Source: Candidatus Odyssella sp.
Lineage (GTDB): Bacteria; Pseudomonadota; Alphaproteobacteria; Bin65
Reading direction: 5' to 3'
Assembly: GCA_016792765.1 (NCBI GenBank)
Contig: JAEULD010000151.1
Location: forward strand, 1-35,057
Length of the DNA stretch: 35,057 bases
The first letter of the stretch is position 1, and every line of letters begins with the position of its first letter. Below, one piece after another: positions 26,941 to 35,057 of the stretch. Both the position numbers and the translations under genes were made by a program. Below the pieces are notes generated by a model that worked only from the letters and a program-made list of their open reading frames with translations, made no database searches and had not been told where the DNA came from.

Positions 26941-27645
26941 TCACGCGCCCAAATACGCCGCCTTCACCTCTTCGTTCTGCTCGAGGTCGCGCGCCGGTCC
27001 GTCGAGCCGGATTTCGCCGTTCTCGATGATGTAGGCATGGTGGCTCGCGGCGAGCGCCACCGCCGCGTTCTGCTCTACGAGCAGGATCGGCACGCCGTCG
27101 GCGTGCACGCGCGCGATGATCCCGAACAGCTGCTGCACGAGCAGCGGCGAGAGGCCGAGGCTCGGTTCGTCGAGCAGGAGGAGCTTCGGCTGGGCCATCA
27201 GCGCGCGGCCGATCATCAGCATCTGCTGCTCGCCGCCGGACAGCGTGCCGGCCGGCTGGCGCGCCCGCTCCCGCAGCCGCGGGAAATAATTGTAGATCCG
27301 CTCGAAGTCGCGCGCCGCGCCGCCCTTGCGGCGGCGCAGCCAGGTGCCGAGCAGAAGATTGTCGGCGACGGTGAGCTCCGGAAAGATCTCGCGGCCCTCG
27401 GGCACCTGCACGATGCCGCGCGCGACGATGCGGTCGATCGGCCAGCCGGTGATGTCCTCGCCCTCGAAGCGGATCCGGCCCGCGGTGAGCGGCACCACGC
27501 CGGAGATGCAATTGAGCGTCGTCGTCTTGCCGGCCCCGTTGGCGCCGAGCAGGCAGACGATGCGCCCGGCCGCAACCGACAGCGATACGTTCTCGAGCGC
27601 GCGGATCGCGCCGTAACTCGCCGATATTCCGCTCAGCTCAAGCAC
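26941..27645 (-). CDS. livF: ABC transporter ATPase, LivF (second system)
   Basis: A 234-residue ATPase starting at GTG. Walker A is GANGAGKT (34-41), then GIVQVPEGREIFPELTV, the signature LSGGEQQ (135-141) and Walker B LLLLDEP (155-161), with EPSLGLSPLLVQQL and LLVEQN as LivF hallmarks. It is the last gene of the long minus-strand operon and overlaps the end of livG by 8 bases. It lacks the basic tail of the first LivF of this window, and its sequence differs enough that the two systems are not a recent duplication. Confidence 0.95.
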   Translation of the reverse strand: MLELSGISASYGAIRALENVSLSVAAGRIVCLLGANGAGKTTTLNCISGVVPLTAGRIRFEGEDITGWPIDRIVARGIVQVPEGREIFPELTVADNLLLGTWLRRRKGGAARDFERIYNYFPRLRERARQPAGTLSGGEQQMLMIGRALMAQPKLLLLDEPSLGLSPLLVQQLFGIIARVHADGVPILLVEQNAAVALAASHHAYIIENGEIRLDGPARDLEQNEEVKAAYLGA

Positions 27646-28408
27646 GGTGGCCCTGCCCGAGATAGGCTTCGATGACTTGCGGATCCTCGCGCACCTCGGC
27701 GCCGGTGCCCTCGGCGATCTTCTGGCCGAAATTCAGCACCGTGATGCGGTCGGCCACCGCCATGACGAGGCGCATCACGTGCTCGACCAGGACGATCGTG
27801 ATGCCCTGTTCGCGGGCGAGGCCGACCAGCAGCGAATCGAGCGCCGCGATCTCGCGATTGCGCAGGCCCGCCGCCGGCTCGTCGAGCAGCAGCAGCTTCG
27901 GCCGGCTCGCGAGCGCGCGCGCGAGGTCGAGCCGCTTCTGGTTGCCGAAATCGAGCGCTTCGGCCGGCGTGTCGCGCAGCGCCGAGAGGCCGGTGCGCTC
28001 GAGCAGCGCGTCGGCCTCTTTCACGGCCGCGCGCTCCGCCGCGCCGCGGCGCGCGCCCGGCCCGAACGGGAAGTAGCCGGGAACGCGCGTCGTCATGCCG
28101 ACGAGGACGTTCTCGAGCACGGTCAGGCTCCGGCACAGCTCGATGTTCTGGAACGTCCGCGCGATGCCGGCCGCCGCGATGCGGTGCGGCGGCATCGCGA
28201 GCAGCGAGCGGCCTTCGAACACGACGTCGCCGGAAGCCGGCGTATAGAAGCGCGAGACGCAGTTGAACACCGTCGATTTCCCGGCGCCGTTCGGCCCGAT
28301 CAGGGCGTGGATCGAGCCTTGCGCCACCTCCATCGAGAAGTTCTGCAGCGCGTGCAGGCCGCCGAACCGGACGCTCACGTCGCGCAGGGCGAAGTAGGGC
28401 GTGCTCAT
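27638..28408 (-). CDS. livG: ABC transporter ATPase, LivG (second system)
   Basis: A 256-residue ATPase. Walker A is GPNGAGKS (38-45), the Q-loop is in RTFQNIEL, the signature is the degenerate LDFGNQKRLDLARAL (152-166) and Walker B is LLLLDEP (172-178), with VEHVMRLV as the switch region and EDPQVIEAYLG near the C-terminus. Its ATG overlaps the livM stop by four bases (ATGA), indicating coupled translation. Confidence 0.95.
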   Translation of the reverse strand: MSTPYFALRDVSVRFGGLHALQNFSMEVAQGSIHALIGPNGAGKSTVFNCVSRFYTPASGDVVFEGRSLLAMPPHRIAAAGIARTFQNIELCRSLTVLENVLVGMTTRVPGYFPFGPGARRGAAERAAVKEADALLERTGLSALRDTPAEALDFGNQKRLDLARALASRPKLLLLDEPAAGLRNREIAALDSLLVGLAREQGITIVLVEHVMRLVMAVADRITVLNFGQKIAEGTGAEVREDPQVIEAYLGQGHRA

Positions 28409-29361
28409 GCGCGCACGCGCCTTGCCCGCGCGCGCGCGAGCCCCCACAGCCCGCGCGGCATGAACATCATCGCGAGGATCAGGATCACGCCGTAGACGAG
28501 CTCCTGCCAGACGAGCAGGTTGCGCATCGTCGTCCGCAGCACCTCCGGCAGCAGCCCGAGCAGCACGACGCCGAGCAGGACGCCCGGAATCGTGCCGAGC
28601 CCGCCCACCACGATCATCGAGAGCACGAGCACGATCTGCGCGAAGCCGAACACCTCCGGGTTCGCGAAGGACTGGTACAGCGTGTACATGCCGCCCGCGA
28701 TTCCGGCATAGACGGCGGAGATCGCGAACACGGCCACCTTGGTGAAGCGCACGTCGATGCCCGAGGCGGCGGCGACGTGCTCGCTGTCGCGGATCGCGCA
28801 CATCGCGCGGCCGAAGCGCGAGCGCGTGAGGAACATCGTCGCCGCCAGCACGAGCGCGAGAATGACCGCCATCACCGGGAACGCGCGGGGGTCGCTGCCC
28901 ATCGCGTAGCCGAAGATGTCGGGGCGGGGCAGGCGCAGGCCGTCGGCCCCCTTCGTCATCGATTCCCAGGCGTTGAACACCCACTGCGCGCCCTCGGCGA
29001 AGGCGAAGGTGGCGAGCGCGAGGTAGACGGCGCGCAGCCGCGTGGCGGGAATCGCGATCAGGAAGCCGACCAGGCCGGCCAGCAGTGCCGCCGCCGGCAT
29101 CGCGACGACGAAGGGCAGGCCGAGGCGGATCTGGATCAGCGCCGTTCCGTAGACGCCGATGCCGAAAAACGCGATGTGGGCGAACGCGAACTGGCCGGCC
29201 CAGCCGAGCAGCAGGTCGAGGCCGATCGCCAGCACCGCGTACATCATGATGACGTTGCCGAGATAGAGATAATATTGCGGCAACAGCATCGGCAGCGCGA
29301 GGCCGAAGGCCAAGAGCAGCAGGAGCGGCGCGAGCCGGGCGAGCGAAGGAGAGCCGTACAC
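28405..29361 (-). CDS. livM: ABC transporter permease, LivM (second system)
   Basis: A 318-residue permease beginning at GTG, with the LivM signatures LLLGWAGQFAFAHIAFFGIGVYG, PATRLRAVYLALATFAFAE and AIRDSEHVAAASGIDVRFTKVAVFAISAVYAGIAGG in successive positions and about nine hydrophobic segments. It lacks the long polar N-terminal extension of the first LivM in this window. It ends in a basic tail (ARARARRVRA). It follows livH by 4 bases. Confidence 0.95.
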   Translation of the reverse strand: MYGSPSLARLAPLLLLLAFGLALPMLLPQYYLYLGNVIMMYAVLAIGLDLLLGWAGQFAFAHIAFFGIGVYGTALIQIRLGLPFVVAMPAAALLAGLVGFLIAIPATRLRAVYLALATFAFAEGAQWVFNAWESMTKGADGLRLPRPDIFGYAMGSDPRAFPVMAVILALVLAATMFLTRSRFGRAMCAIRDSEHVAAASGIDVRFTKVAVFAISAVYAGIAGGMYTLYQSFANPEVFGFAQIVLVLSMIVVGGLGTIPGVLLGVVLLGLLPEVLRTTMRNLLVWQELVYGVILILAMMFMPRGLWGLARARARRVRA

Positions 29362-29365
29362 CGCG

Positions 29366-30265
29366 CTACACCTTCTTCGCGGCGACGCGGCCGCCCAAGA
29401 GCCCCTGCGGCCGCAGCGCGAGGATCAGCATGATCACCGCGAACGGCGCCACCGAGATCGCGTTGGAACCGACGTAGAGGCCGACGATGTTCTGGATCAC
29501 GCCGAGCAGGATGCCGCCGATGATGCAGCCGGGCAGGCTCGCGAAGCCGCCGATGATCGCGGCGGCGAAGGCGAGAATGACGATGACGCCCATGTCCGGC
29601 GTCATCAGCAGCTTCGGCGCGAGCAGGACGCCCGCGATCGCGGCCAGCGCCGAGGCGATGCCCCACACGGTCATCCGCATGCGCCGCACCGGAATTCCGA
29701 CGAGGGCGGCGGCGCGGGGATTCTGGCTGGTGGCGCGCAGCGCCTTGCCGGTCAGGGTCAGGCTGAAGAAGGCCCACAGCGCCGCCATCACGACGACGGC
29801 GACGACGATGATCGCGATGTCCTGCCTCTGGACGACGACCGGCCCGATGAAGATCGGCTCGCCGGTGAAGAAGGGCGGCAGCCGGCGGACCTCTTCGGTG
29901 TAGGGCACGACGCGCACGCCGCCCTTCAGCACGTAGGACAGGCCGACCGTGGCGATGACCATCGCGACGAGGATGCTCTGGCCGGGTACCGCGCGGCCGA
30001 GCACCTTGTGCAGCACGATGCGGTCGAACAGCGCGCCGAGCGCGAACGTCGCGATCGCGGCGAACGCGAAGATCAGGATGTAGGGCAGGCCGAGATAGAG
30101 CAGCGCGAGCATGCCGGCGTAGCCGCCGATCATGACGATCTCGCCGCCGGCGAAATTGATCACGTCCGTCGACTTGTAGACGATCACCAGCGAAAGCGCG
30201 ATCAGCGCGTACACGCAGCCGGTGACGACGCCGCTGGCGATCGCCTGCAGGATCAGCAAGGTCAT
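29366..30265 (-). CDS. livH: ABC transporter permease, LivH (second system)
   Basis: A 299-residue permease with the LivH start GVVTGCVYALIALSLVIVYKST and VINFAGGEIVMIGGYAG, eight or so hydrophobic segments, ATSQNPRAAALVGI in the cytoplasmic loop that meets the ATPases, GGFASLPGCIIGGILLGV and the terminal LRPQGLLGG. Compared with the first LivH it has a longer periplasmic stretch around residues 110-135 (VVPYTEEVRRLPPFFTGEP), which may reflect a different binding-protein partner. A strong hairpin separates it from the upstream binding-protein gene. Confidence 0.95.
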   Translation of the reverse strand: MTLLILQAIASGVVTGCVYALIALSLVIVYKSTDVINFAGGEIVMIGGYAGMLALLYLGLPYILIFAFAAIATFALGALFDRIVLHKVLGRAVPGQSILVAMVIATVGLSYVLKGGVRVVPYTEEVRRLPPFFTGEPIFIGPVVVQRQDIAIIVVAVVVMAALWAFFSLTLTGKALRATSQNPRAAALVGIPVRRMRMTVWGIASALAAIAGVLLAPKLLMTPDMGVIVILAFAAAIIGGFASLPGCIIGGILLGVIQNIVGLYVGSNAISVAPFAVIMLILALRPQGLLGGRVAAKKV

Positions 30266-30321: not shown

Positions 30322-31527
30322 CTACATGCCGTCCTTGCCGTTCCAGCTATACGCGCCCGGCATCAGCGTGTGGGTCTTGCCGTCGAACCTGATGAAGATC
30401 GACGAGCGATAGCCGTCGCGGCGGTCCTTGGCGAAGGCGGTGAGCCCCGCGAGGACGCCGGAGTCGAACTGCGTCGCCTCCATCGCATCGACGAACTTCT
30501 CGCGCGTGAGATCCTTGCCCACCTTCTCGAGCGCCCTCGTGATGGCCATGGCCGAGGGCAGGCCGTAGGTCATGAACGCGCCCGGCGTGCGGTCCGGATA
30601 GTACTGCTTGTAGAGCTGGATCCACTTCTGCTGCTTCGGTCCGTCGGTGAGGTCGTTGAGCGGCGAGCCGTAGTAGAAGTTGACGAGCGCCGCGTCGTTG
30701 CCGACGTTCTTCGCGAACACGGCCGGGATCGGGATTCCCTGCACCGCCTGCACGAGCGGGGTCTTGGTCATGCCGAACTCGGCGTATTTCTGCGCGATGA
30801 GAACCGCGGGCGCCGGATACGCGGTCGAGATGATCACGTCCGGGTTCGCGGCGCGCACCTTCAGCAGCGGCGCGGTCACGTCGTTGATGCGCGGCGGAAT
30901 CCGCTCGACGGCGACGACCTCGGCGCCCATGCGCGCGGCCACCGCCTTCGCCGTGCTCCAGTTCGAGTTGCCGAAATCGTCGTCGTGGGCGATGAACGCG
31001 ATCTTCTTGCCCTTCAGCTCCTTGATCGCGAATTCCATGATCGTGGCGCCGACCGTGCGCTGCGTGCCCCCGAACGCGCCGAACACGTAGCGGGTGGGCG
31101 GGAAGACGCCGCCGTCGCCGGCCGCGTTCAGCATCACGAACGGGATCTTCTCGCGCGTCACGAACTCCTGCGCGGCCACGGCCGCGGCGGTGCAGGAGCC
31201 GCCGTTCACGAGGAACACCTTGTCGACCGTGGCGAGCTTCTTGACCACCGTCACGGCCTCGGTGGGCGTGCACTTGTCGTCTTCGACGATGACCTTGATC
31301 TTGCGGCCGTGGATGCCGCCCTTCTTGTTGACCTCCTCGTACCACATCTTCGCCGCCTGCAGCGGATCGAAGCCGAAGGCCGCCAATTGGCCGGACATCG
31401 GCGCGAACAGGCCGATCAGGATCTCGCCGTCGGTGACGCCCGGGTCCGCGGCGCGCGCGGGCCCGAACGCGGCGAGCATCGCCGCGGCGCCGAGCAGCGC
31501 GCCGCGCAGTGTCTTCAGTCTCAACAT
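30322..31527 (-). CDS. Periplasmic substrate-binding protein of the second Liv-type transporter
   Basis: A 401-residue protein with a Sec signal peptide (MLRLKTLRG, Ala-rich core, cleavage near GPARAADP) and the Leu/Ile/Val-binding-protein-like fold: GEILIGLFAPMSGQLAAFG, then NKKGGIHGRKIKVIVEDDKCTP, VFLVNGGSC, and a second lobe from KKIAFIAHDDDFGNSNW. The start has a strong GGGAGGA ribosome site. Cys residues in DDKCTP and NGGSCTAAA may pair. It differs clearly from the first binding protein, so the two transporters are likely to have different ligands. Neighbouring catabolic genes suggest an organic acid or aromatic compound rather than a plain amino acid. Confidence 0.92.
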   Translation of the reverse strand: MLRLKTLRGALLGAAAMLAAFGPARAADPGVTDGEILIGLFAPMSGQLAAFGFDPLQAAKMWYEEVNKKGGIHGRKIKVIVEDDKCTPTEAVTVVKKLATVDKVFLVNGGSCTAAAVAAQEFVTREKIPFVMLNAAGDGGVFPPTRYVFGAFGGTQRTVGATIMEFAIKELKGKKIAFIAHDDDFGNSNWSTAKAVAARMGAEVVAVERIPPRINDVTAPLLKVRAANPDVIISTAYPAPAVLIAQKYAEFGMTKTPLVQAVQGIPIPAVFAKNVGNDAALVNFYYGSPLNDLTDGPKQQKWIQLYKQYYPDRTPGAFMTYGLPSAMAITRALEKVGKDLTREKFVDAMEATQFDSGVLAGLTAFAKDRRDGYRSSIFIRFDGKTHTLMPGAYSWNGKDGM

Positions 31528-31588: not shown

Positions 31589-31936
31589 TCAGGCCGCCTT
31601 CGCGGGGGCGTCCACGGCGATTTCGAGCGTGCCCCAGTTGCGGTCCATCCTCAACAGCGGATCGAGGCCGAGTTGGGCGCGCTCCTGGACGTAGCGCTTG
31701 GTCGCGGGGCTGGCGAAATAGGCGCGCAGCGCCTCCGCCGACTTCACGCCGTAGATCATCGCGTAGCCGGGCCAGCCGTCCTTGTCGGGCTCGGCCAGCT
31801 TGTAGCGGCTCGCCCAGAGGAAGCCCGGCTGGGCCACGACGTCCTGCAGATGGCCGCCGTCCAGCCAGTCGAACACCTTCTTCTCGCCGCCCGGCTTCAC
31901 CCAGAATTTCACGAGATAGACGATCGGTGCGTTCAT
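31589..31936 (-). CDS. Small EthD/DUF4286-like dimeric alpha-beta barrel protein
   Basis: A 115-residue protein beginning IVYLVKFWVKPGGEKKVFDWLDG, followed by GGHLQDVVAQPGFLWASRYKLAE and a WPGYAMIYGVKSAEALRAYFAS segment. This layout, a beta strand, a helix and then strands, is that of dimeric alpha-beta barrel (ferredoxin-like) proteins such as EthD and DUF4286 members. Proteins of this type often sit in catabolic operons as monooxygenase- or cyclase-like partners, but the role here is unknown. The start is supported by a GGGAGG site. It lies between the SDR and binding-protein genes in the same operon. Confidence 0.7.
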   Translation of the reverse strand: MNAPIVYLVKFWVKPGGEKKVFDWLDGGHLQDVVAQPGFLWASRYKLAEPDKDGWPGYAMIYGVKSAEALRAYFASPATKRYVQERAQLGLDPLLRMDRNWGTLEIAVDAPAKAA

Positions 31937-31955: not shown

Positions 31956-32720
31956 TCAGGCGGCGGCCACGCCGCCGTCCACGTTGATTTCCGCGCCGGT
32001 GACGTAGGCCGATTCGTCGGAGGCGAGGTAGAGCGCGGCGTAGGCGATGTCGATCGGCCGCCCCATGCGCCCCATCGGCACGCGGCCGACGATCATCCGC
32101 CGGCGCTCCGCCGGATCCGCGGCCTGCGCGAAGCTCGCCTGCAGCAGCGGCGTGTCGATCGCGCCGGGGTTGATCGAGTTGCAGCGGATGCCGTAGCCGG
32201 CGCGCGCGCAATAGATCGCGACCGTCATCGTGTATTCGTGCACGGCGCCCTTGCTCGCGCCGTAGGCGGCGAGGTGCGGCGGCGCGGCGCGGATCGCGGC
32301 GCGCGAGGCGACGTTGACGATGCTGCCGCCGCCGCTGGCGCGGATCGCCGGGATCGCGGCGCGGCAGCCGAGAAAGACGCCCTCGGCGTTCACCGCGTGC
32401 ACGCGCCGCCAGTCCTCGAGCCGCGTGTTCTCCGGCGTCCCCTCCAGGGCGCAGCCCGCATTGTTCACGAGGATGTGCAGGCCGCCGAAGGCATCCCGCG
32501 CCAGGTCGACGACGCGCGCCCAGCCGGCTTCGTCCGCCACGTCGTGCCGCAGGGCGCGCACCGACGGGCCGATCTCCGCGGCCAGCGCCGCCACGCTCGC
32601 CTCGTCGAGATCGGTCGTGACGACCTTCGCGCCCTCGTCGGCGAACAGCTTGACGGTGGCCCGGCCCATGCCGGAGCCGCCGCCGGTGACGATCGCCACC
32701 TTGTCGCGCAGCCGCGCCAT
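31956..32720 (-). CDS. Short-chain dehydrogenase/reductase of the GntR-controlled operon
   Basis: A 254-residue classical SDR: TGGGSGMG (12-19), Asp37 favouring NAD(H), NNAG (86-89), Asn111, Ser139, Tyr153 and Lys157 (YGASK), and the C-terminal GAEINVDGG. The active site is complete. A GGGAGG ribosome site lies just upstream of the ATG. It sits 24 bases after the VOC gene and 19 before the small barrel protein, so it acts in the same pathway, probably oxidising an alcohol or dihydrodiol intermediate. The substrate is not determinable. Confidence 0.92.
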   Translation of the reverse strand: MARLRDKVAIVTGGGSGMGRATVKLFADEGAKVVTTDLDEASVAALAAEIGPSVRALRHDVADEAGWARVVDLARDAFGGLHILVNNAGCALEGTPENTRLEDWRRVHAVNAEGVFLGCRAAIPAIRASGGGSIVNVASRAAIRAAPPHLAAYGASKGAVHEYTMTVAIYCARAGYGIRCNSINPGAIDTPLLQASFAQAADPAERRRMIVGRVPMGRMGRPIDIAYAALYLASDESAYVTGAEINVDGGVAAA

Positions 32721-32744: not shown

Positions 32745-33254
32745 TCAGATCGCGTTCGGAACCGCGCGCTTGGTCTTGTTCCACTGCTCGAGCATCGCGG
32801 GCGCCGCCTTCTCCATCGCCGCGCACATCTCCGGCGTGTCGGTGGGGAAGCTGAGCTCGAGCCGGTGCCCGCTCGGGTCGTGGAAATAGATCGACTGGCA
32901 GATCTTGTGATCGGCCGGGCCGAGCACCTCGATGCCCATGTCTTGCAGGCGCTTCTTGGCCGCCAGCAGCTCCTCCATCGAGCCGACGCGCAGCGCGAGG
33001 TGCTGCACCCAGCCCGGCGTGTTGGGGTCGAAGCCCATCTCGGGCGATTCCGGCACCTCGAAGAACGCCACCGAGCTGCCGTCCTCCATCTGGAAGAACA
33101 AGTGGAAGTGCGGGCTGTATTCGCCGGTGGAGAGCACCGTGTCGGCCGACACCGCCATCCTGTACTTCATGCCGAGCGCGCGCGTGTAGAACTCCGCGGT
33201 TTCCTTGGCGTTCTTGCAGCGGTAGGCGACGTGATGCAGCGACTTGACGAGCAT
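32745..33254 (-). CDS. VOC superfamily protein (extradiol dioxygenase/glyoxalase fold)
   Basis: A 169-residue protein with two beta-alpha-beta-beta-beta modules and a likely metal triad His8 (LHHVAYRC), His85 (VQHLALRV) and Glu133 (HRLELSF). The HFHLFFQMEDGSSVAFFEVPE segment is shared with the VOC protein at 11321-11881, its paralogue. It may be a small type I extradiol dioxygenase or another metal-dependent lyase or isomerase. The ATG at 33254 has a GAGGA site; it lies 8 bases after the regulator stop, so it is the first structural gene of the operon. Confidence 0.85.
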   Translation of the reverse strand: MLVKSLHHVAYRCKNAKETAEFYTRALGMKYRMAVSADTVLSTGEYSPHFHLFFQMEDGSSVAFFEVPESPEMGFDPNTPGWVQHLALRVGSMEELLAAKKRLQDMGIEVLGPADHKICQSIYFHDPSGHRLELSFPTDTPEMCAAMEKAAPAMLEQWNKTKRAVPNAI

Positions 33255-33262
33255 CGGGGTCC

Positions 33263-33970
33263 TCACTCTGTGCGTAGTTTCGACGACGAAGGGGCGGGAT
33301 GCGGCGTCTGGCCGGCCGGCCCGATCCGTTGGCGGATCTGGTCGATGCCCTGATAGATGTGCTCGCGCATCAGCGCCTCGGCATCGATCGCACGGCGCTC
33401 GCGGATATAGCGATAGATGCGGCGATGCAGGAGGTGGGAGCCCTTCAGCGCGTCGTAGTCGTACCAATGGATCACGCGCGCCGAGGCCAGCGGCACGCGG
33501 CAGGTACGGTCGATCAGGTCGGCCAGCAGGCGGTTGCCCGAAAGCGCGATGATGCGCGTGTGGAACAGGTCGTTCATGTCGGTCCACGGCTCGCGGTCGC
33601 CGTCGACGAGGCGGCCCTTCGCCAGGATGTCGTCGCCGATCGCGAGAATGCGCTCGAGCTCGCGCGCCGTCTCGCCGTCGATGCCGCGCTCCGCCGCGTA
33701 GCGGCACGCCATTCCTTCGAGGTTCGCGCGCACCTCGTGCGCCGCGGCGATCTCGGCCATCGCGAAGCGCCGCACCGAGTAGCCGCGCTTGGGCGCGTAG
33801 TCGAGCAAGCCCTCCGAGGCGAGCGTCGCGAGCGCGGCGCGCACCGGCGTCCGCGAAACGCCGAGCAGCGCGGCGAGCGGAATCTCCTGGAGATGCTCGC
33901 CGGCCGCGAAAGCGCCGCGCAGGATGCGGTCGCGCAGGTTGTTCGCAGTGTCTTGCGTACGCGAACTCAT
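33263..33970 (-). CDS. GntR-family transcriptional regulator, FCD (FadR-type) subfamily
   Basis: A 235-residue regulator. Residues about 5-70 form the winged helix-turn-helix: NLRDRILRGAFAAGEHLQE, then LAALLGVSRTPVRAALATL (32-50), the DNA-reading part, and GLLDYAPKRGYSVRRF. Residues 75-215 are the all-helical FCD effector domain with the usual metal ligands in NDLFHTRII (His137), SHLLHRRIY and MREHIYQ (His204); the position usually held by Asp four residues before His137 is Asn133, a known variation. FCD regulators respond to organic acids. The ATG at 33970 is preferred; an upstream in-frame ATG at 34009 falls inside the operator palindrome. It heads the operon down to livF and faces the bicupin gene. 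Confidence 0.93.
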   Translation of the reverse strand: MSSRTQDTANNLRDRILRGAFAAGEHLQEIPLAALLGVSRTPVRAALATLASEGLLDYAPKRGYSVRRFAMAEIAAAHEVRANLEGMACRYAAERGIDGETARELERILAIGDDILAKGRLVDGDREPWTDMNDLFHTRIIALSGNRLLADLIDRTCRVPLASARVIHWYDYDALKGSHLLHRRIYRYIRERRAIDAEALMREHIYQGIDQIRQRIGPAGQTPHPAPSSSKLRTE

Positions 33971-34001: not shown

Positions 34002-34029
34002 GTTAGCATGTATACATGATTGCGGTCAA
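34002..34029 (-). promoter_or_regulatory. Candidate promoter of the GntR-VOC-SDR-liv operon
   Basis: On the minus strand TTGACC (34029-34024, five of six matches) is followed after 16 bases by GCTAAC (34007-34002, three of six). The spacer holds the operator palindrome. The -10 is weak, so the exact start is unsure. Confidence 0.4.
34007..34018. promoter_or_regulatory. Palindromic operator O1 for the GntR regulator (predicted)
   Basis: CATGTATACATG is a perfect 12-bp palindrome. The GTATAC-type core is of the kind bound by FadR-subfamily GntR repressors. It sits in the spacer downstream of TTGACC, the candidate -35 of the regulator's own promoter, an ideal place for repression. Binding itself is a prediction. 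Confidence 0.7.
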
Positions 34030-34069
34030 TTGCCGCGGAATTGCCTTGCCTCGTCCGGAATCCATGGCT

Positions 34070-34081
34070 CATGTATCCATG
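34070..34081. promoter_or_regulatory. Second operator O2 (one mismatch)
   Basis: CATGTATCCATG differs from the perfect palindrome at one base and lies 63 bp away, centre to centre, which is six turns of B-DNA. It is on the bicupin side of the gap. A 5-bp inverted repeat (CAATT and AATTG, 34027-34043) lies between the two sites. Confidence 0.55.
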
Positions 34082-34236: not shown

Positions 34237-35057
34237 ATGAATGCCGAATCCACGGCGCCGCCGACCGAGCGGCCGCGCATCGCGCAAAGCTTCGATTACA
34301 CGCCGCTGCGCGAATCCGACTTCGCGCAGAAGGGCCTGCGCGCGTTCATGCAATACCGCGATCTCGGGCTGCGCCGGGCGACGGGCGGCCTGATGCGGGC
34401 GGAACACATCCGCGTGGTCGCCGAAACCGGCATGAAAACGGGATGGCACTGCCACGATCTCGATTTTCAGTTCGTCTACGTGCTGAAGGGGCACGTCCGG
34501 TTCGTCACCGAGGACGGCGAGACGGTGACCCTCCGCGCCGGCGATTGCGCGCATCTGCCGGCGCTCTATCGCCACGACGAGATCGAGTTCGCGCCGGATT
34601 TCGAGGTCGTCGAGATCACGGCGCCGGCCGAGGTGCGCACGATCCCGGGGCGCGACGCGCCGCTGCCGCGGCGGAGCGACGCCCAGGGCCGCGTTTCCCG
34701 CTTCGCGGCGAGCTACGACCGGCCCGAGGCCTACAAGGTCGGCGACGGGCCGCGCCAGTTCCTCGCCTATCGCGACACGGCGGTGACCGAGGCCACCGGC
34801 CGGCGCGTCAACGTCAACGTCGTCCGCAACAGCAAGGCCGGCGACAAGTCCACGGGCTGGCACTATCACACGCTCGCCTGCCAGTTCGTGTTCGTGCTGA
34901 AGGGCTGGTCGCGCGTCGAGGTCGAGGGCCAGGGCGAGTTCACGATCCACGCCGGCGACGCGATGACGCTGCCCCACAGGCTGAAGCACGACGTGACCGG
35001 CTTCTCGGCCGATTTCACCGTGCTCGAGCTCAATATTCCCGCCGACTACGAAACGAT
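34237..35057 (+). CDS. Bicupin protein, 5' part
   Basis: The gene starts at an ATG with GGGGGGAAGAG upstream and runs off the window end after 273 codons. It carries two cupin domains made by internal duplication. Domain 1 has TGWHCHDLDFQFVYVLKG (residues 68-85) and YRHDEIEF; domain 2 has TGWHYHTLACQFVFVLKG (206-223) and LKHDVTGF. The likely metal ligands are His71, His73, Gln78 and His113 in the first, and His209, His211, Gln216 and His251 in the second. Both sites look intact. Bicupins include dioxygenases, decarboxylases and isomerases. It is divergent from the GntR operon and shares its operator region, so it probably belongs to the same pathway. The reaction is not known, and the missing C-terminus may be short. 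Confidence 0.88.
   Translation, partial: MNAESTAPPTERPRIAQSFDYTPLRESDFAQKGLRAFMQYRDLGLRRATGGLMRAEHIRVVAETGMKTGWHCHDLDFQFVYVLKGHVRFVTEDGETVTLRAGDCAHLPALYRHDEIEFAPDFEVVEITAPAEVRTIPGRDAPLPRRSDAQGRVSRFAASYDRPEAYKVGDGPRQFLAYRDTAVTEATGRRVNVNVVRNSKAGDKSTGWHYHTLACQFVFVLKGWSRVEVEGQGEFTIHAGDAMTLPHRLKHDVTGFSADFTVLELNIPADYET

Follow-up and report, generated by a model that had tools for sequence, protein, structure and literature searches.

Two near-identical palindromes lying six helical turns apart upstream of a GntR/FCD regulator gene appear to be the operators at which this regulator represses its own operon, with both sites bound jointly and most likely bridged by a tetramer into a DNA microloop, a reading to which we assign a probability of roughly 0.74. 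The analysis covers a 35,057-nucleotide stretch of Candidatus Odyssella sp. DNA (the window), the 4.6-Mb genome to which it belongs, and 48 homologues of the regulator obtained from searches of approximately 1,700 genomes plus two plasmids.

The operator pair and the possible regulator promoter

Putative operator O1 is a perfect 12-bp palindrome, CATGTATACATG, at 34007..34018 (no strand assigned), 36 bp upstream of the regulator start codon. Its partner O2, CATGTATCCATG, at 34070..34081 (likewise without strand), carries one mismatch relative to O1 and lies 63 bp away on the side of a divergent bicupin gene, which confirms what an earlier note on this DNA had described. Start to start the distance is 63 bp, or 6.0 x 10.5, and because this amounts to six full turns, O1 and O2 would face the same way. 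The sites are rare. In the whole window CATGTATACATG was found twice at up to two mismatches against 0.12 expected, and a Markov-1 estimate for this window of 69.5% G+C expects about 2e-5 further copies of this kind within 100 bp of one already present. The search of the whole genome for further copies, suggested in the earlier note, was run and returned O1 and O2 as the sole matches to CATGTATACATG at no more than one mismatch. The pattern ATGKATMCAT likewise found only these two sites in the 4.6 Mb, with no further copy that might indicate a wider regulon in the organism's own genome, and relaxing the outer base to A/T (WTGKATMCAW) added one site, on contig C205.

On the minus strand the hexamer TTGACC (34024..34029), a weak candidate for the -35 element of the regulator promoter, sits 5 bp upstream of O1. 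A promoter scan found no acceptable -10 element paired with it and no standard sigma-70 promoter, the best -10 hexamer being a weak GCTAAC with 3/6 matches at 16 bp spacing, and therefore a regulator promoter at TTGACC is only suggested. In the earlier description of O1 as lying just downstream of the regulator's -35, the hexamer and its position are correct. Alignment with homologues places the regulator start at 33970; an alternative in-frame ATG at 34009 falls inside the palindrome and takes up the last bases of O1.

The regulator and its presumed operon

The regulator (33263..33970, minus strand, 235 aa) was assigned to the VanR group of GntR/FCD proteins, as an Atu1419-like member, from Pfam, its relatives in the PDB, a structural model, and Foldseek. 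It has the N-terminal winged helix-turn-helix and C-terminal FCD domain that define the FCD subfamily of the GntR superfamily, with matches to PF00392 (GntR, E 4.3e-15) and PF07729 (FCD, E 2.7e-17), each exceeding the gathering score. Within FCD proteins, six C-terminal helices mark the VanR group and seven the FadR group. The monomer model (mean pLDDT 82.7) has six, at residues 71-95, 99-117, 123-143, 147-163, 172-190, and 194-216. Atu1419 (6z74) is the best PDB relative by sequence (E 7.5e-28) and also heads the Foldseek results for the model, at about 31% identity. The window regulator carries R, T, and R at the Atu1419 DNA contacts Arg45, which reads a base, Thr46, and Arg49. The two arginines are conserved in 48/48 homologues and the threonine in 46/48, and the Atu1419 zinc ligands Asn137, His141, and His192 are also conserved in all 48, while the fourth ligand, His214, aligns with a histidine of the window regulator. 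The operator core in the window is identical to the Atu1419 operator ATGTATACAT.

On the minus strand the regulator is closely followed by genes for a VOC/glyoxalase-fold protein (32745..33254, Pfam Glyoxalase), an SDR oxidoreductase (31956..32720, adh_short_C2), a small DUF4286 protein (31589..31936, called a small barrel protein in the earlier note), and an ABC substrate-binding protein of the Peripla_BP_6 family (30322..31527), and then by open reading frames of LivH type (29366..30265) and LivM type (28405..29361), both permeases, and LivG type (27638..28408) and LivF type (26941..27645), both ATPases. The LivH-type frame is homologous to annotated permeases of the Methylobacterium currus plasmid locus L065, and comparison with that locus also identified the other three. 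The VOC protein, second gene of the presumed operon, is the most conserved neighbour, being 73-75% identical beside the regulator in two other loci (L058, L059). It has a strong solved relative named 'Glyoxalase' (9u42, E 2.4e-49), for which a literature search found no paper.

A near-complete copy of this gene set occurs in another family's genome (G294, locus L074, 2909-13263), where a regulator of 40% identity shares one 10-kb cluster with bicupin, GST, two VOC genes, binding protein, LivHMGF, SDR1, SDR2, and DUF4286, and the proteins other than the regulator are 46-66% identical to those of the window. The operators of that cluster are 114 bp apart, not 63. The M. currus regulator, at 47% identity, stands opposite genes for SDR, binding protein, and LivHMGF, and a GST gene comes next after it. 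Therefore, of the earlier proposal of one substrate-induced uptake and degradation system, the gene set as one such system is well supported by these two clusters, while induction by the substrate is the part that we infer.

Conservation and helical phase of the sites

The 12-mer palindrome recurs unchanged upstream of homologues with 63% (G002, L004), 62% (G004, L005), and 44% (G017, L006) identity. Scored with a symmetric half-site matrix, the 48 upstream regions held 1.69 sites each versus 0.15 in Markov shuffles, a contrast to be read with the knowledge that the matrix was written after inspection of seven loci and that related regulators are not fully independent. In the 7-20 kb neighbourhoods of close homologues, strong sites were almost confined to the regulator promoter. 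There is a single site in L006 and in L088, and none was found upstream of the homologue in L035. Comparison of the palindromes among related genomes had been set beforehand as the refuting test, and they proved conserved. Together with the conserved DNA contacts, this comparative evidence bears out the earlier proposal that the palindromes serve the adjacent GntR/FCD regulator, and they are almost certainly its operators. Among FCD homologues at 30-35% identity, mostly one site or none was present, and the whole-turn pair looked for there was absent, and therefore pairing would be a property of the nearer clade.

Pairs separated by 63 bp occur in the window, in G004, on the M. currus plasmid (L065), and in L092, L095, and L100/L101, while 62 bp separates those of L037, L038, L089, L090, and L093. 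Other loci have pairs at 52/53 bp (L004, L007, L054, L066, and the L091 group), 73/74 bp (L064, L106), or 31 bp (L098, L099), and the spacings 52/53, 62/63, and 73/74 bp correspond to five, six, and seven turns. For a test of phase, regulators were collapsed at 65% identity, leaving 23 spacings of 20-130 bp. At a period of 10.5 bp these gave a mean vector R of 0.79 (Rayleigh p about 7e-7), with a phase -0.5 bp from whole turns and a best period of 10.3-10.4 bp. The idea of a phase arose from seven loci, and a held-out set of 16 spacings that omits those seven gave R 0.71 with p 3e-4 (permutation p 4e-5). With each distinct spacing counted once, the full set gave p 0.009 and the held-out set p 0.044, which is the most conservative of these estimates.

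Turn numbers on the tree run 6, 5, 6 in the three nearest members and 5, 6, 7 in the next clade, so that several switches have occurred, with no intermediate lengths. Where the sites are 63 bp apart, the intervening DNA shows 12-37% identity, no more than chance, apart from two sister loci at 78%, which rules out inheritance of the spacing through conserved spacer DNA. What is preserved between the sites is length modulo one turn, and not sequence. The pair in the window, at 63 bp, has the whole-turn spacing of a cooperative in-phase pair of the AraR kind, and the persistence of phase among homologues supports the same-face arrangement that the earlier note had deduced for O1 and O2. In more distant members some pairs, at 29, 65, 24/124, and 113-114 bp, depart from whole turns or come only roughly near them. 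Upstream of the L106 regulator are four operator-like sites (-197, -124, -29, -18), of which the distal two are 73 bp apart, so that the pair takes a more elaborate form there. In a related subclade of L102, L104, and L105, the sites are weaker and their spacing of 29 bp does not fit whole turns, and this is possibly a different arrangement.

One unit or two operators

The bicupin gene (34237..35057, plus strand), recognized by two Cupin_2 stretches, is divergent from the regulator and cut by the end of contig C301 at 35057. O2 lies 156 bp from its start, and no promoter was evident on the bicupin side of O2. One explanation of the pair is that O1 serves the regulator operon and O2 the bicupin gene, as two independent operators without interaction. 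The position of O2 on the bicupin side is consistent with this, and it would be the usual layout of FadR-subfamily divergons with two sites, in which, according to one survey, spacing grew with intergenic length in 71/100 pairs (PMC4494728). However, independent operators would not account for spacings locked to whole turns across spacer sequence that is at chance, nor do the spacings track how far away the divergent gene begins, the criterion applied in that survey (r=0.13 across 12 loci, whose gene starts are estimates based on ORFs). Moreover, the pair is present in G002 (L004) where there is no divergent gene at all, the upstream gene, encoding a molybdopterin-binding protein (PF20256), being co-directional with the regulator and ending 161 bp before it, and the second site still stands five turns away. 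Elsewhere the divergent gene varies among SDR, DsbA-like, hydantoinase B, methionine synthase-like, VOC, and bicupin genes. Therefore the independence of spacing from intergenic distance, the G002 pair, and the varied divergent genes argue for a pair that works as one unit, in the first place at the promoter of the regulator itself, and we consider two separate operators improbable. By the same observations, and given also the 156 bp and the want of an evident promoter, the control of the bicupin gene together with the regulator that had been predicted earlier is at best plausible.

Proposed mechanism and alternatives

We suggest that one dimer would occupy each 10-bp core (ATGTATACAT and ATGTATCCAT) and that the two dimers would bind cooperatively on the same DNA face, most likely as a single tetramer that bends the 63 bp between O1 and O2 into a microloop, as proposed for Atu1419. 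As O1 closely follows the possible -35 and O2 lies upstream of it, the complex would shut the promoter of the operon running from the regulator through VOC, SDR, DUF4286, and the binding protein to LivHMGF, and possibly that of the divergent bicupin gene too, until an effector releases the regulator and repression ends. The earlier predictions of autorepression and of a possible loop between the sites are both strengthened by the comparative evidence. Some parts of the model are firmer than others. Joint, phase-dependent action of the two sites is likely in view of the conserved spacing, and for a protein-bridged loop the balance tilts only slightly in favor. Tentatively, and at somewhat less than even odds, the pattern could reflect a built-in ruler throughout this clade of FCD regulators, by which the tetramer needs operators five, six, or seven whole turns apart, forming very short loops, while the remaining promoter region, including the gene on the other side, is free to change.

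Loops of 52-63 bp are stiff, and bending them is costly; for that reason the main rival is joint binding without bridging, in which dimers would cooperate on one DNA face, for example through joint bending or through joint exclusion or trapping of RNA polymerase. Such binding would avoid a very short loop, and phase dependence by itself is no proof of bridging. Nevertheless the Atu1419 tetramer, whose two dimers hold palindromes approximately 10 nm apart, provides a direct bridge (PMC7797058), and we regard cooperation without a bridge as unlikely, if the strongest of the alternatives to the bridged pair. The palindromes might instead serve another regulator or function and be close to the FCD gene only by coincidence, and the genome does hold other FCD paralogues. 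This is very improbable considering that the sites travel with the regulator across many genomes in which the adjoining genes differ, agree with the operator proven for its nearest solved relative, and hardly occur anywhere else in the genome. A chance repeat is ruled out, its probability being negligible, by the two copies found against 0.12 expected at two mismatches, the rarity of the sites in the genome, and their conservation in relatives.

Comparison with known systems

GntR/FCD proteins are one of the largest families of bacterial regulators and were long described as dimers; a tetramer has been reported for a single protein, whose sites are widely spaced (PMC7797058). A pair of sites phase-locked at five to seven turns throughout a clade provides independent, purely evolutionary evidence that two dimers act as a unit on one DNA face. 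The pair also lends itself readily to a helical-phasing experiment, and ATGKATMCAT-like sites paired at 52, 63, or 73 bp form a simple signature for predicting the targets of such regulators. Precedents are known in the looping model of Atu1419 and the in-phase pairs of AraR; phase-locked operator pairs in an FCD clade were not described in the literature searched, which consisted mostly of papers available without subscription.

Atu1419 of Agrobacterium fabrum, an FCD regulator of the VanR group, is tetrameric both in solution and on DNA, where each dimer takes one palindrome with the operator sequence ATGTATACAT. It acts as a repressor of its own gene and of neighbouring genes, with DNA looping proposed, has one operator between its own -35 and -10, and is known from structures 6Z74, 6ZA0, 6ZA3, 6ZA7, and 6ZAB (PMC7797058). 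The window system shares with it the operator core, the DNA-contact arginines, the zinc ligands, a divergent region that contains two sites, and, as proposed here, autorepression and looping. It is unlike Atu1419 in spacing, 63 bp compared with 190 bp and, in a second promoter, 109 bp, and in its gene set, since Atu1419 controls genes of hydroxycinnamate degradation, with methylene-tetrahydrofolate proposed as effector. Among FadR-subfamily divergons, 29/100 have double sites whose distance hardly varies and whose cooperation is presumed (PMC4494728), a class that resembles the pair in the window, although the accessible part of that survey does not describe helical phase, the present clade, or its steps of five, six, and seven turns. 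NanR of Escherichia coli is likewise an FCD repressor with more than one dimer per operator, but its three dimers bind a (GGTATA)3 repeat and not distant in-phase palindromes (PMC8012715). AraR of Bacillus subtilis has the GntR DNA-binding domain with a non-FCD C-terminal domain, another operator sequence, and arabinose genes as targets, yet it binds cooperatively to two properly spaced, in-phase operators with formation of a small DNA loop (PMC4218819) and so is the experimental precedent for pairs that, like the one in the window, lie in phase.
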